From Verrucomicrobiia bacterium (GTDB lineage: Bacteria; Verrucomicrobiota; Verrucomicrobiia; Limisphaerales; UBA8199): a stretch of 64,000 bases of DNA. Below, piece by piece: positions 10,258-59,360 of this stretch (within the stretch, counting starts at the first letter, position 1; each line of letters begins with the position of its first letter). The position numbers and the translations under genes are program-made. The DNA lies in the NCBI GenBank assembly GCA_035946615.1, contig DASYZB010000103.1:1-64000 (forward strand), in the 5' to 3' direction. Below the pieces are notes generated by a model. The model made no database searches. It was given only the letters and a program-made list of their open reading frames with translations, and was not told where the DNA came from.

Positions 10258-11643
10258 CTATGGGCCGCGCTTGTCTCCTGCAAAGGAATGGCGGCGCGCC
10301 TGGAAATGAAAGACGATGACGCCGGAGATGGCGAAAAGGAGAAGATAATAAAAGCTGAACGCGCTCTCAATCCAGGATGAATGCGGGCCGGTGACCAATT
10401 GGGCGAGGATGTTTTGGGTGACCAGGACAAGCCAAATGAGGCGGTAATCATGGGGGAAAACCTCCCCACGAAGCGGCGTGGGCAAGGGCCGAAAGCGGAG
10501 CCAAGCGGCCATGGCCAGCAGGCCGGCCAGCATCAGCGGACCGATAACGAGCCACAGGATGTGGTCCCAGTAATCTTCGTTTCCCAGGTAAAGATTGGCC
10601 CAGCCTTTCAGCCCATTTTTGACCGACAACCCCAAACCGAAAATGAGCGCCGAATAGCAGGCGAAGCGCTCGAGGTTGGCCGAGGTGGGTGAGAGGACGG
10701 TGGGACAGAGCCCTGGGAGGGACCCCCCTCCCCAACCCTCTCCCCTTGGGGAGGCGAGAGGGAGAAGAGAGGGAACTATGGGCCGGTTGACAAGGTAGAA
10801 GGCAACGCCATAAGCCATGCCGATGCTAATGCCTCCGCAGGATTCCCAGCAGCGCCACCAGTTGAAGGTTGCGTCCAGCCACAAGCGCGGGGCCCAGCGC
10901 CAGTTCTGGCAGAGCGCCCAGCCCATACCATTCAGCGTGCCGACGGTGGCAATTAAAGTGACATTCTTCCAATCGCGCCGGGCCAGTTCAAAGGCAAGGA
11001 AACCCAAATACAACCCTAGATGTTCGAGAGCGGCGCGGTTGTCGCGCATTAAGCGGCCCAGGTTGGGGTTGGCGAGCAGGTCGTGGTACTGGAGGTGAAG
11101 GCTTTTGTATAACGGCAGGCAAACCTCGGGGGAATGCTCGAAGAACAGTCTGGCCAGCAAAGCCCCGCCCAGGCCACAGGCAATGCGCAGAACCCAATCG
11201 CGGGTAAGCAGCGGGCGTTGTGGAGCCGACCATGCAAGCAAACAGGCGCCCAGACCCGCCCAGGGCATTCCCGCAATGAAGAGCCACACAAAACCATACC
11301 AGCGGGAGATGGGAACGAACCTCCCTTGTGCTGTGTTGGTCTGGAGGTGGCCGTCGAAAAAGCTAGGCCATTGCATCCAGCCTCTGCTGCCCGAGAGCCC
11401 GACGCCGATTGTCAGAGCCAAAATAATCCATCCCGAGCGGTATCTGCGAAATGGGGGCTCTTCTGGTCCGCGGGCAATGAACCACCAGGCGGTCCCCCAA
11501 GCGACCCCCGCAAAGATGCAGCCATCCATGCCGCCGAAACCGGAACAACCGCGAACGGCCCAGGTCATCCCGCCGAGCGCGGCAAAAAGGAGCGTGGGCA
11601 GGAGCAAATCGTGTGGGAGGTCACGGGCCGTTCCGGTGGTCAT
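10258..11643 (-). CDS. Polytopic membrane protein of unknown function
   Basis: A 461-residue protein with roughly ten hydrophobic segments and many Trp and Gly residues. The N-terminal part has a striking motif GGMTWAVRGCSGFGGMDGCIF that spans the first two membrane helices (split here as GGMTWAVRGCSGFGGM and DGCIF). No family with known function was recognised. The longer open frame reaches back to 12135, but everything before the Met at 11643 is antisense to the oxygenase gene and is not real. At about residues 288-305 the protein contains SLLPLASPRGEGWGGGSLPG, which is the translation of a palindromic repeat (10715-10766) inserted in frame between two hydrophobic segments. It is the last gene of a minus-strand run after infA and the oxygenase. 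Confidence 0.7.
   Translation of the reverse strand: MTTGTARDLPHDLLLPTLLFAALGGMTWAVRGCSGFGGMDGCIFAGVAWGTAWWFIARGPEEPPFRRYRSGWIILALTIGVGLSGSRGWMQWPSFFDGHLQTNTAQGRFVPISRWYGFVWLFIAGMPWAGLGACLLAWSAPQRPLLTRDWVLRIACGLGGALLARLFFEHSPEVCLPLYKSLHLQYHDLLANPNLGRLMRDNRAALEHLGLYLGFLAFELARRDWKNVTLIATVGTLNGMGWALCQNWRWAPRLWLDATFNWWRCWESCGGISIGMAYGVAFYLVNRPIVPSLLPLASPRGEGWGGGSLPGLCPTVLSPTSANLERFACYSALIFGLGLSVKNGLKGWANLYLGNEDYWDHILWLVIGPLMLAGLLAMAAWLRFRPLPTPLRGEVFPHDYRLIWLVLVTQNILAQLVTGPHSSWIESAFSFYYLLLFAISGVIVFHFQARRHSFAGDKRGP
10715..10766. repeat. Palindromic repeat, copy B, inside a membrane-protein gene
   Basis: GGGAGGGACC, a C-rich run and CCCTCTCCCCTTGGGGAG, then GCGAGAGGGAGAAG form a hairpin of the same family as the copies at 46561-46692 and 58440-58532. 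The frame of the membrane protein passes straight through it, adding a Gly/Pro/Ser-rich loop. Confidence 0.75.
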
Positions 11644-11776
11644 GGCGGAAGTGTATTCATGCCCATGGCGCTTGACCAGCGCTTCGGGTAAGTTAGGGGA
11701 ACGATTCAGGTAACAGAGGGAACAGAGGGTTTCGAAGGCAGCGGTCCAGGCGCCACAGCAAGCACCGGAGCACCGC

Positions 11777-13249
11777 TCACGCTTCCAAAGCTGCTGCGCC
11801 CGGGGACGGAGCGCACTCCGCTGAACATTCTGTGGAGACCAAGAGCTTGTCGAGCACGTCGGCGGCGGAGAAGGAATCGCAACCGGGGGCAAGGAACTGG
11901 GCGAGGGATACGAGATCGTCGCCGGCGGTGACCAAGGGCAGTTCGTCGGGGCTTTGGTCGCGGACCTGGGCGAACCCGATGGTGGCGGGCAGGCCGTTGC
12001 AGACGCACATGCGGCCAAGGGCTTGTTCGGCAGCGCCACCTTTGCGGAGGTATTGTTCGAGCGGTTCTGCGGGACAGCGGTAGCCGATGGAGCCATCGGC
12101 TTTGCGATAGAGATGGCGCAAATAGCCGAGGTCACAGATGCGATGGCGGGCGCGATAGTTGTCTGCGTTGGAAATGGTGTTTTTCAGTTGGGCGACTTTG
12201 AAGGGAAAGCCTGTGGGGGAGGCCACTGGGTCAGTGAAGACGCGAGCCTGGCCGAGACGGCTCAACGCAATGGTTTGTCGCCGAATCGCAGGCAGGATAC
12301 CGGATTCCTCACAGAAGGCAAAGGGGGTGCCGACCTGGATTCCGGTTGCGCCTAACCGGAGGGCCTGGGCGAGTTTGCCCGGCTGGCCATAACCGCCGGC
12401 GAGCCAAAAGGGCAAACCGAGCGCGCGGATTTTGTCCAATTCCGGGACGTCGCGAGGGCCGTAAAGGGGTTCGCCATCGGTGCTGAGCTGGAGCGGGCCG
12501 CGCGGTGGTGCGTTGTGGCCACCAGCGGTGGGGCCTTCCACGACAAAGCCATCGACGCGGCCATTGGCTTTTTTGGCGAGGGTAATGGCCAAGGTGGCGG
12601 AGGCGACGATGCCAAGAAAGAGCGGGCGCTTGAGTCGCGGCGCCGGGCCGCAGCAGAAGAGTTGCGGGTCAAAGGTGGAGGTTGTCTTTTCACCCGGGAG
12701 AGCGCCTTCAACATCAACCGGCAGAGAAGCGGGCTGGCCCTCGGCGAGAAGGTCTAAAGCTCCCGGAACGGTTCGTGGGATGCCCGCCCCCATGAGGATA
12801 TAGTCCGCGCCTGCGAGCATGGCCCCGTAGAGCGAGGGCAGGGTGGGAAGTTGGATTTTCTCGAGGTAATTGATGCCCACGAGGCCCGGGTGGCCTTCTT
12901 TGGCTAGAAAGACCTCAACAAAATTGGCGACGACGGTGAGCTCGACGAGGTTCCGGCGCGGGCGCAGGGCGGGCATCGGTGTGAGCTTGAAAGGGGCCCT
13001 GGGGGCCTTGCCGCCGTGGGTGAAATAGTCCTTGCGCACGCGAGCGGCCATCTCTGGGAATGGGAATCGGTCAAGGGCATGGCGCAAGACGCCGTCGGGG
13101 TCGCCAAGCTGGAGACGACGGGCCAGGACCACGGCCAGGGCGGTGCCAGAGACAACGCCAAGCTGGCCCAGGCGCGCTACGGCGCGGGCCAGGGGCCACC
13201 CGGAAACGGCAACGCCCATGCCGCCTTGGATAATGACGGGGTGCGTCAT
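11777..13249 (-). CDS. Nitronate monooxygenase-like FMN-dependent TIM-barrel protein
   Basis: A 490-residue protein of the nitronate monooxygenase (2-nitropropane dioxygenase) superfamily. Evidence is the N-terminal QGGMGVAVSG loop, the central VVEGPTAGGHN motif that binds FMN phosphate and carries the usual catalytic His, the FWLAGGYGQPGKL segment, and GATGIQVGTPFAFCEESG. At 490 residues it is longer than typical nitronate monooxygenases (310-380) and has a Cys-rich C-terminal third, so it is closer to the longer PfaD/enoyl-reductase-like branch of the superfamily. The true substrate cannot be told from sequence. It starts 10 bp after infA and is followed by the membrane-protein gene 133 bp further on. 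Confidence 0.85.
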   Translation of the reverse strand: MTHPVIIQGGMGVAVSGWPLARAVARLGQLGVVSGTALAVVLARRLQLGDPDGVLRHALDRFPFPEMAARVRKDYFTHGGKAPRAPFKLTPMPALRPRRNLVELTVVANFVEVFLAKEGHPGLVGINYLEKIQLPTLPSLYGAMLAGADYILMGAGIPRTVPGALDLLAEGQPASLPVDVEGALPGEKTTSTFDPQLFCCGPAPRLKRPLFLGIVASATLAITLAKKANGRVDGFVVEGPTAGGHNAPPRGPLQLSTDGEPLYGPRDVPELDKIRALGLPFWLAGGYGQPGKLAQALRLGATGIQVGTPFAFCEESGILPAIRRQTIALSRLGQARVFTDPVASPTGFPFKVAQLKNTISNADNYRARHRICDLGYLRHLYRKADGSIGYRCPAEPLEQYLRKGGAAEQALGRMCVCNGLPATIGFAQVRDQSPDELPLVTAGDDLVSLAQFLAPGCDSFSAADVLDKLLVSTECSAECAPSPGAAALEA

Positions 13250-46525: not shown

Positions 46526-46560
46526 GAGGTCCGGCAGCAGCGGCTCATAGGCTGTGCATA

Positions 46561-46692
46561 GACTACAGGGAGGGACCCCTCTCCCCGGGCCCTCTCCCCT
46601 CCCGCTGCGACGGCGCGACAGCGCGGCGAGTCGGAAGGGGAGAGGGAGAAGCATCGGCAGATTAACGATGTAGTTCCTATTAGGGACTCCTC
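46561..46692. repeat. Palindromic repeat, copy C (longest)
   Basis: The core AGGGACCCCTCTCCCC and TCGGAAGGGGAGAGGGAGAA matches copy D in hemW nearly base for base, and so do the flanks ending TTAGGGACTCCTCA. It differs by an extra GC-rich stretch in the loop (about 46590-46635). It lies between rpoZ and smpB and carries no gene. Confidence 0.8.
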
Positions 46693-46796
46693 AGGTATTT
46701 TAAGCAGCCTGCAAGGGCTCGGCTCTCTCTGTGCTTCGAGGAGGATTGAAGAAGTTCCTGAAATTTATTAGTTATCCATTTTAGCAGCGGCGCCAT

Positions 46797-54463: not shown

Positions 54464-54524
54464 ACGGAGTGATGGAGTGTTGGAGTAGTGGGTTTCCCAT
54501 CACTCCAATACTCCGTCACTCCGT
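54464..54524. terminator. Long near-perfect hairpin made of 8-bp repeats
   Basis: Arms 54464-54492 and 54496-54524 are 29 bases each with a TTT loop and only about four mismatches, some of them G-U pairs in RNA. The left arm is made of repeating GGAGTGAT, GGAGTGTT and GGAGTAGT words, period 8. It follows the secretion operon by 48 bp and could end its transcript, but there is no U-tract. Confidence 0.6.
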
Positions 54525-57260: not shown

Positions 57261-57881
57261 ATGAAGAATCTGATTGGCGCATTGGCATTGGCGGGGCTGC
57301 TTGTGACCTGGACCGCACAAAATTGTGAAGGTCAGGCAGGCGGAGGTGGGGGTGGGGGCGCAGGCGGCGCCGGAGGAGCGGGCGGTGCTGCTGGTGGAAC
57401 AGCGGCAGGTGGGGCCGCACCAGGGACGGCGGGGCAGGTTGGAACTGGCCCCGGCACGACCATCGGCAATCCCAACACGGGAGTGAACCCAAATACACGG
57501 ATTATGAACCCCGCTACCAGCATCCCCTCTGGCATAGGGACCAACGGCTTATTGAGTGGCACAAATTTAGGCGCACTAGGGACTAATGTGTTGTCCGGTG
57601 GCGTTAGCGCCACAAACTCAGGGTTGCTTGGCACCAACGGGTTGGCAGGCAGCACGAATGCCTTGGGAACCAACAGCCAGATAGGGCCTCCGGGCACCTT
57701 CAATAGCGGGGTGGGCGGCGCCCTGGGAAATAGCGTCCAACCCGGCACGGGCGCCGCTGGAACCGGCGGCGGCACCAGCCCGGGTGGCGTCGTGGGCGGG
57801 GTTGGCGCCGGGCCCGACGGGATTGGCGCCGGTTACACCAGCAACACAGTTCCGGTGAACCCCGGCGGCTTGGGCCGCTAG
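57261..57881 (+). CDS. Secreted Gly-rich repeat protein
   Basis: A 206-residue protein with a signal peptide (MKNLIGALALAGLLVTWTAQ, cut after EGQA). A long stretch of Gly and Ala repeats (about residues 27-55, GGAGGAGGAGG) is followed by repeats built on GTN, such as GTNGLLSGTN, GALGTNVL and LLGTNGL (about residues 85-150), then a Gly/Pro/Asn-rich tail. A good AAAGGAGA ribosome site precedes the ATG. It may be a surface or matrix protein. It is low-complexity, so homology cannot guide function. Confidence 0.8.
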   Translation: MKNLIGALALAGLLVTWTAQNCEGQAGGGGGGGAGGAGGAGGAAGGTAAGGAAPGTAGQVGTGPGTTIGNPNTGVNPNTRIMNPATSIPSGIGTNGLLSGTNLGALGTNVLSGGVSATNSGLLGTNGLAGSTNALGTNSQIGPPGTFNSGVGGALGNSVQPGTGAAGTGGGTSPGGVVGGVGAGPDGIGAGYTSNTVPVNPGGLGR

Positions 57882-57980: not shown

Positions 57981-59360
57981 TCATCGCAGAAACTCTTGCG
58001 CTGCGGCATCTGCGAATCGCAATCCCAAACGAGTCAACTTGAAATGATCGGGCATGAGCACGCCCCAGCCCTGGTGTTCGAGGCGCTCCATAGCGGTTGC
58101 CCATTCCCGCCGCAAGTCCTGGCCTGTCACGCGTCGAAACTCTTCGAAAGGCCAGCCGGCTACCATTCTCAAGCCAAACGCCGCAGTCTCGCCCGCCCGG
58201 CGCAGGGGTGATAATTCCTCGGTCGATTCAACCGCCCTCCGGCCTCGTTCGAGCTGCTCGCAATAAAGCGGCGTATTAGCCCAGTTCTTGGTTCGAAGCC
58301 CGCGCACATAACTGGTTGCGCTCGGCCCGGCGCCGTAAAACGAGCCGCCACGCCAATAGTTCACATTGTGGCGGCAGGCGTATTGAGGCACGGCGGGCTG
58401 GTTAGTCCCGGCGCTTTCCATAGAGCACTTTGGTCTTATTGAGGAGTCCCTAACATGAACTACGTCTTTAATCTGCCGAGGCTTCTCCCTCTCCCCTTCC
58501 GAAGGGGAGAGGGGTCCCTCTGTGTGTAGTCCATCCCACGGTCCTCCCAGTATCTCGATTCCGCACCCACTGCTGGCCGGTTCAAAGGATTCCGGCTGCG
58601 GATTCTTTTTAAATGCGTCTGGCTTGCCGGCCCGCCGCGCAAAATTTGCCACCTCGTACTGCTCGAATCCGGCTCGCGCGGTTTGTTCCACCAACTCTTC
58701 GTACATGGCGCAAGCCAAGTCATCATCCTGGTCGAATTCCCCTGCCTGCAACTGCTGGTAGAGGACCGTGTCTTCCTCATAAATGACTTCATAGCTGGAG
58801 AGATGCTCGCTCCCCATGGCCAGCGTCTCTCGCAGCGTATCGCGCCAGGCCCGCAGCGACTGCCCCGGAATCGCAAACATCAGATCGAGATTCACGTTGT
58901 CAAAACCCGCCTGGCGCAGGATGTCGTAGGATTTGAAAACCATCTCCGGCGTGTGGATGCGCCCAAGCCGCTCGAGCAAAGCCGCCTCGAGCGATTGAAC
59001 ACCCATCGAAATGCGGTTTACTCCCCAAGCCCGCAAGAGCCTGGCTTTATCCAGCGACACGGTGGCCGGGTTGCATTCGACAGTCCATTCGGATGCCCCA
59101 AGCAGCCCCAACCGTTGCATTGCTCCCAGGATTTGCTCCCATTGCCGCACATTGAGCAGCGACGGCGTCCCGCCCCCGAAGAAAACGGTGGCAGGCCTTA
59201 CATCGGGCGCAATCAACTCCAACTCGCCGATCAGCGCGCGAACATAACGGTTGATAAGCTCGCCGCTCGACGGCTCGGAATAAAAGGCGCAATAGGAACA
59301 CTTGTGCGCGCAGAACGGCACATGCACATACATGCTGGTGATTGGGGCAGCGGCAGACAT
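57981..59360 (-). CDS. hemW: HemW-like radical SAM protein with an in-frame repeat insert
   Basis: A 459-residue member of the HemW/HemN radical SAM family, thought to act as a heme chaperone. The 4Fe-4S motif CAHKCSYCAF (Cys-x3-Cys-x2-Cys) is at about residues 17-26, followed by VFFGGGTPSLL, VECNPATV, RISMGVQSLE and LMFAIPGQ. The C-terminal HemW part (YACRHNVNYWRGGSFYGAGP) is also conserved. Between FARRAGKPD and YACRHN there are about 80 extra residues. Part of them, DGLHTEGPLSPSEGEREK, is the translation of palindromic copy D (58440-58532). Other family members have only a short linker here. The frame is intact on both sides, so the protein is likely still made. Confidence 0.9.
   Translation of the reverse strand: MSAAAPITSMYVHVPFCAHKCSYCAFYSEPSSGELINRYVRALIGELELIAPDVRPATVFFGGGTPSLLNVRQWEQILGAMQRLGLLGASEWTVECNPATVSLDKARLLRAWGVNRISMGVQSLEAALLERLGRIHTPEMVFKSYDILRQAGFDNVNLDLMFAIPGQSLRAWRDTLRETLAMGSEHLSSYEVIYEEDTVLYQQLQAGEFDQDDDLACAMYEELVEQTARAGFEQYEVANFARRAGKPDAFKKNPQPESFEPASSGCGIEILGGPWDGLHTEGPLSPSEGEREKPRQIKDVVHVRDSSIRPKCSMESAGTNQPAVPQYACRHNVNYWRGGSFYGAGPSATSYVRGLRTKNWANTPLYCEQLERGRRAVESTEELSPLRRAGETAAFGLRMVAGWPFEEFRRVTGQDLRREWATAMERLEHQGWGVLMPDHFKLTRLGLRFADAAAQEFLR
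58440..58532. repeat. Palindromic repeat, copy D, inside hemW
   Basis: The hairpin CTTCTCCCTCTCCCCTTCCG and GGGGAGAGGGGTCCC has flanks TGAGGAGTCCCTAA at one end and GTGTGTAGTCC at the other. Its reverse complement matches copy C (46561-46692) over almost its whole length. It lies in the hemW coding frame without a stop codon. Confidence 0.85.

Follow-up and report, generated by a model that had tools for sequence, protein, structure and literature searches.

A palindromic repeat, most likely an IS630-type MITE, lying in frame within HemW and eight or more further proteins of a Limisphaerales bacterium

Rickettsia palindromic elements (RPEs) are reportedly described in Ogata et al. 2000 and 2002, and RUP and Correia/NEMIS are bacterial miniature inverted-repeat transposable elements (MITEs) of the IS630/Tc1-mariner type. 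According to PMC10969869, the RPEs are palindromic units of ~100–150 bp that keep the frame of numerous unrelated protein genes and contribute a recurrent peptide. Occasional in-frame insertions have been reported for the QMITEs of Coxiella (PMC5896051), and repetitive extragenic palindromes (REPs) of the GTAG type are highly enriched in the Verrucomicrobium O. terrae (PMC3733652). The present study concerns a palindromic repeat in a stretch of 64,000 nucleotides (hereafter the window; contig DASYZB010000103.1, our C103) from a 5.6-Mb metagenome-assembled genome (MAG) in 161 contigs of a Verrucomicrobiia bacterium, where the repeat lies in frame within hemW, as the original prediction, made from the sequence alone, had claimed. 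We consider it very likely that this repeat is an IS630/Tc1-mariner-type MITE lodged in frame in HemW and in at least eight other proteins.

The host gene, hemW (57981..59360, minus strand), encodes a radical SAM heme chaperone of 459 amino acids, as judged by its open reading frame (ORF), Pfam, TIGR00539 and fold. The earlier claim of an open frame with intact motifs was borne out: the single frame is free of stops, the HemW motifs are preserved, the score of 228 bits exceeds the NCBI equivalog cut-off of TIGR00539 (205), Pfam places Radical_SAM at residues 11–177 and HemN_C at 383–449, and the closest solved fold is HemN (1olt). The nearest named relatives are from Verrucomicrobia subdivision 3/Limisphaerales. 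The linker from FAR to RHN-NYW comprises 88 residues here versus 13–63 in approximately 80 related Verrucomicrobia loci, and its length in the other same-family genomes is similar to that range. The repeat segment is absent from the linkers of these ~80 loci and from same-family HemW, which could be located in 11 of the 12 other family genomes. Relatives sharing the segment with no repeats elsewhere were not encountered, and the proposal of an independent case of protein-embedded mobile repeats is supported both by the relatives without the segment and by genome copies inside other coding sequences.

The copy in hemW spans 58437..58552 on the minus strand, 116 bp including a TA at both ends, and differs from the family consensus by three substitutions and no indels; the extent predicted earlier (58440–58532) falls within the repeat but is too short. 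At the core of the palindrome is a perfect 13-bp inverted repeat around one nucleotide (CCCTCTCCCCTTC/GAAGGGGAGAGGG; 58487..58513). In hemW orientation, the sequence and the alignment of copies place the left border TA at 58551..58552 and the right one at 58437..58438. Because these dinucleotides occupy codon positions 2–3 of two ATA codons (Ile270 and Ile308, respectively), the repeat codes exactly for residues 271–308 (LGGPWDGLHTEGPLSPSEGEREKPRQIKDVVHVRDSSI), a net addition of 114 bp, or 38 residues; the TA at 58437..58438 would be the duplicated target. When folded as RNA, the whole copy reaches −52.9 kcal/mol (z −4.4). The remainder of the linker, upstream (58553..58645, minus strand) and downstream up to RHN-NYW (58369..58436, minus strand), is variable and unique in the genome. 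The repeat thus accounts for 38 of the 88 linker residues, and since the other ~50 are unique, about half of the "extra" residues, put earlier at about 80 and rightly regarded as partly repeat, are not repeat.

A relative of this copy lies between rpoZ and smpB, gene names that were assigned in the original prediction. Positions 58440–58502 (minus strand) match 46631–46693 at 58 of 63 bases (92%, E ~1e-19), and 17 of 17 more bases match further in. The two were predicted to be the same repeat, but the intergenic copy (46546..46696, plus strand; model match 1–128, E 1e-19) is not identical: its core is longer (CTCCCGCTGCGACGGCGCGACAGCGCGGCGAGT) and its left end differs. A chance match is excluded because the hemW copy has 76 additional matching stretches within its own genome, where a covariance model yielded 101 matches at E ≤ 1e-6 over 5.6 Mb (E-values are rough).

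The consensus of the aligned copies is 116 bp long, begins and ends in TA (TACTGGGAGGACCGTGGGATGGACTAC...GTAGTTCATGTTAGGGACTCCTCAGTA) and forms an imperfect palindrome around CCCTCTCCCCTTCGGAAGGGGAGAGGG; a 128-bp subtype carries 12 extra bases, and further copies have a longer core. One TA belongs to the target, so insertion adds 114 bp net, and 126 bp in the case of the 128-bp subtype; each of these lengths is divisible by three. Among the 85 copies of at least 100 bp, TA was found at the left border in 50, at the right in 41 and at both in 28, compared with only 2–7 counts just outside the borders, although the model itself includes the TA ends and slightly favours these counts; 23 of the 40 best copies carry it at both ends. 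The two ends mirror each other imperfectly as inverted repeats, with 19 matches among the 28 terminal bases, and the consensus, treated as single-stranded DNA, folds from one end to the other (z −3.6). The 116–128-bp element has no transposase of its own, and its frames encode a short repeat peptide only. Related elements were detected in 5 of 13 family genomes and, with a stricter cut-off, in 3 of the 146 genomes in a sample of the order; full-length TA-bounded copies are present in two genomes (G004 and G007). No RNA family in Rfam scored above threshold.

The assignment of the repeat as most likely an IS630-type MITE follows from the presence of an IS630-family transposon with related ends in the same genome. 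Four DDE_3 (IS630-type) genes were found, one of which, on contig C49, belongs to an IS630-family element (DDE_3, 133 bits) that measures 1107 bp from TA to TA and whose 28-nt ends match each other at 24 of 28 positions. The right end of the MITE matches each of these ends at 22 of 28 positions and the left end at 18–19, against a best value of 17 over 14,716 TA sites in the HemW loci of relatives. In the repeat-bearing genome G007, a transposase 72% identical to that of C49 has an upstream end matching at 21 of 28 positions. This likeness of ends supports mobilisation by an IS630-type transposase, short of proof. At L282 (~2030–2260), another repeat (GTTACCCCTACGGGGTTTGAA...) immediately adjoins the IS630 element and is followed by a truncated MITE copy, and a similar block is nested within the MITE copy of locus L023.

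When HemW was used as a protein query against the genome, its insert was matched in many other frames. The genome-wide search for copies in coding sequences that the original prediction had proposed, in which the flanks of ~90 copies were retrieved and their ORFs scanned, revealed in-frame copies flanked on either side by conserved protein in nine proteins, namely, HemW and eight others: HypF (within HypF_C; 750 bits, 13 substitutions), UvrA (806 bits, 18 substitutions), KdpB (within the HAD domain; 1039 bits), a glycogen-debranching enzyme, MidA (rearranged copy), a heptose-kinase-like PfkB protein, a GDSL/TPR protein and one unknown protein, the scores of the first three being above the equivalog cut-offs. 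These other hosts, the TA borders and the related IS630 ends go beyond what had been predicted. Same-family orthologues align across the junctions without the segment, i.e., they have empty sites. N-terminal cases (NtrC-like on C150, IlvD on C101, peptidase S8 on C28 and DUF4159 on C136) were left out because the repeat may precede the actual start. Also uncounted, because 45 positions differ from the consensus, is a weak candidate copy in the window (10687..10812, plus strand, E 6e-10) inside an ORF on the opposite strand (10261–12183); this ORF encodes an unknown 641-aa protein in which a 42-residue segment weakly resembles the repeat and is mostly missing in relatives.

The consensus of the commonest subtype, A, contains stops in five of the six frames, the exception being sense +2, whereas that of subtype B is open in three (+2, +1 and −1). 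The +2 peptide (LGGPWDGLHTEGPLSPSEGERE...VVHVRDSS-like) is read in the HemW, HypF, UvrA, debranching-enzyme, PfkB and GDSL copies and the −1 peptide in KdpB and the unknown protein, while the rearranged copy of MidA contains parts of both. We propose that an IS630-family transposase acts in trans on the MITE ends and inserts the element at a TA, which would be duplicated; the open frame of subtype A would be entered whenever the target TA fills codon positions 2–3. Where the element enters an open frame in a surface loop that tolerates it, the protein would be lengthened by 38 or 42 residues rather than destroyed, and the copy would survive. In HemW, the ATA codon would have been the target, and the 38 residues would form a disordered loop before RHN-NYW. 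Thus, the cell probably makes proteins that contain translated mobile DNA.

Several points weigh against this reading. The terminal inverted repeats of the MITE agree only in part with those of the C49 element (18–22 of 28), which stops short of proving the exact mobiliser; the sequence comes from a MAG, and the relatives without the segment are too distant to display a single TA at the empty site. The frame is also kept in 15 of 48 other near-full copies, and divergence like that of the UvrA copy would preserve it about half the time by chance; simulation gives values of ~0.5–0.8, and frame retention was accordingly rejected as proof of selection because it does not discriminate. A codon-usage test intended to separate genic copies from the rest lacked power and was abandoned. 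On the supporting side, AlphaFold, run on 46 HemW sequences (mean pLDDT, predicted local distance difference test, 82.7), gave mostly >90 for the radical SAM and C-terminal parts and <50 for residues 250–320, the low values of the insert being partly due to alignment gaps, as few aligned sequences cover it. The prediction is of a preserved HemW core with the insert as a disordered, flexible loop between the radical SAM core and RHN-NYW.

The segment might be spliced out of the RNA, or skipped by ribosomes bypassing the strong hairpin, leaving a finished protein without it. The RNA hairpin is indeed very stable, and mobile bypass elements with hairpins are known in yeast mitochondria; however, all nine protein copies keep the frame without stops, which would be needless if the segment were removed, and the frame-broken copies that were checked all sit between different genes and none inside one. 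No intron was recognised by Rfam, where RT-19 gave only a sub-threshold match (E 0.3), and removal appears highly unlikely. That hemW and the other hosts are young pseudogenes, genes being inactivated whose frame is open by luck, would agree with the youth of the HemW copy (three substitutions) and with the fact that HypF, KdpB, UvrA and HemW are needed under some conditions only. Yet the host ORFs are otherwise full length, four of them (HemW, HypF, UvrA and KdpB) exceed equivalog cut-offs, the older HypF and UvrA copies are still stop-free, and the motif-complete HemW is the only one found in the genome; we therefore consider inactivation improbable and continued function of the hosts the better expectation.

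A 161-contig MAG could be suspected of chance or artefactual joins, since repeats of this length can mislead a short-read assembler. A misjoin, however, would unite different genes, whereas in nine genes a single protein continues in frame from one flank to the other and the orthologues of relatives are continuous across the junction, which makes this explanation hardly credible. The nature of the mobile unit is a separate matter. A GC-rich hairpin, a high copy number and the REP enrichment of O. terrae (PMC3733652) would suit a REP/REPIN-like element (REPIN, REP doublet forming a hairpin) moved by a RAYT (REP-associated tyrosine transposase) of the HUH type. The full-length unit of 116–128 bp with inverted ends, TA borders and ends resembling those of an IS630 element argues against it, and we regard such an origin as quite improbable compared with an IS630-type MITE.

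The HemW linker may attract insertions more generally. In the pooled sequences, which form a small pool, linker DNA matched dispersed repeats in 7 of 41 longer linkers of relatives versus 10 of 328 control segments taken from those genes (Fisher p = 0.001, which is approximate given the overlapping controls and the relatedness of the genes). Among the linker matches, the best four had E-values of 4e-8 to 2e-5, with nothing equal among the controls. They represent repeats of other kinds (CTCTCCC hairpin/TCAACCC, GGAGTGATGGAG), so that this one linker appears to receive different repeats depending on the species, which suggests a shared insertion hot spot. Other dispersed repeats were noted in the Verrucomicrobia linkers L091, L096, L098, L101, L146, L147 and L155, examples being GGAGTGATGGAGTGATGGAG, TCAACCCTCAACCC and GAATGTCGAATGACGAAT. 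Length variation or another insert also occurs at the same point in HypF (G007, G002), UvrA (G008) and the debranching enzyme (G001, G002, G008), and these sites are therefore regarded as tolerant loops, possibly same-loop targets besides the HemW linker. The different in-frame inserts there are carried by L289 (HypF, G007), L290 (UvrA, G008) and L293–L295 (debranching enzyme), and some of the relatives' loop inserts resemble repeat peptides, e.g., NTKHQTPNT or PSTLNPQ. The chances seem to us evenly balanced that, in Limisphaerales, several unrelated repeat families, including an IS630-type MITE made protein-compatible by its length and open frame, repeatedly and independently colonise the same tolerant loops in different species and thereby extend housekeeping proteins with translated sequence. 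In the window itself, a copy of the GGAGTGATGGAG repeat lies at 54465–54485, and a secreted-looking, Gly/Ala/Asn-rich low-complexity protein is encoded next to hemW (57261–57881, plus strand).

With this element, protein-embedded mobile repeats appear in a phylum distant from Rickettsia and with larger, non-reduced genomes, with a candidate parent and empty sites at hand. How mobile DNA turns into protein sequence, and which loops accept repeats, becomes testable by comparison of many species; in automatic annotation, repeat-derived segments pass for ordinary protein. No paper on such a case in Verrucomicrobia was found in the open-access literature, which is a weak negative.

Compared with the known systems, the element shares a GC-rich hairpin and many intergenic copies with REPs and REPINs (PMC3733652) but is a TA-bounded unit of 116–128 bp with inverted ends, and the GTAG/CGTC tag is absent directly at the hairpin. 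Its resemblance to the RPEs consists in a palindromic repeat lying in frame in nine unrelated protein genes with a recurrent peptide; in contrast to them, it resides in a member of the Verrucomicrobiota with a non-reduced genome of 5.6 Mb, is bounded by TA and is accompanied by an IS630 element with related ends. It is not classed as an RPE because its host belongs to another phylum and no RPE sequence was compared with it. With the IS630-type MITEs (RUP, Correia/NEMIS and QMITEs), it has in common a short length, inverted ends, TA borders, the lack of a transposase and putative mobilisation in trans, and it is set apart from them by its internal, domain-embedded position in nine or more conserved proteins and by a net length that preserves the reading frame.
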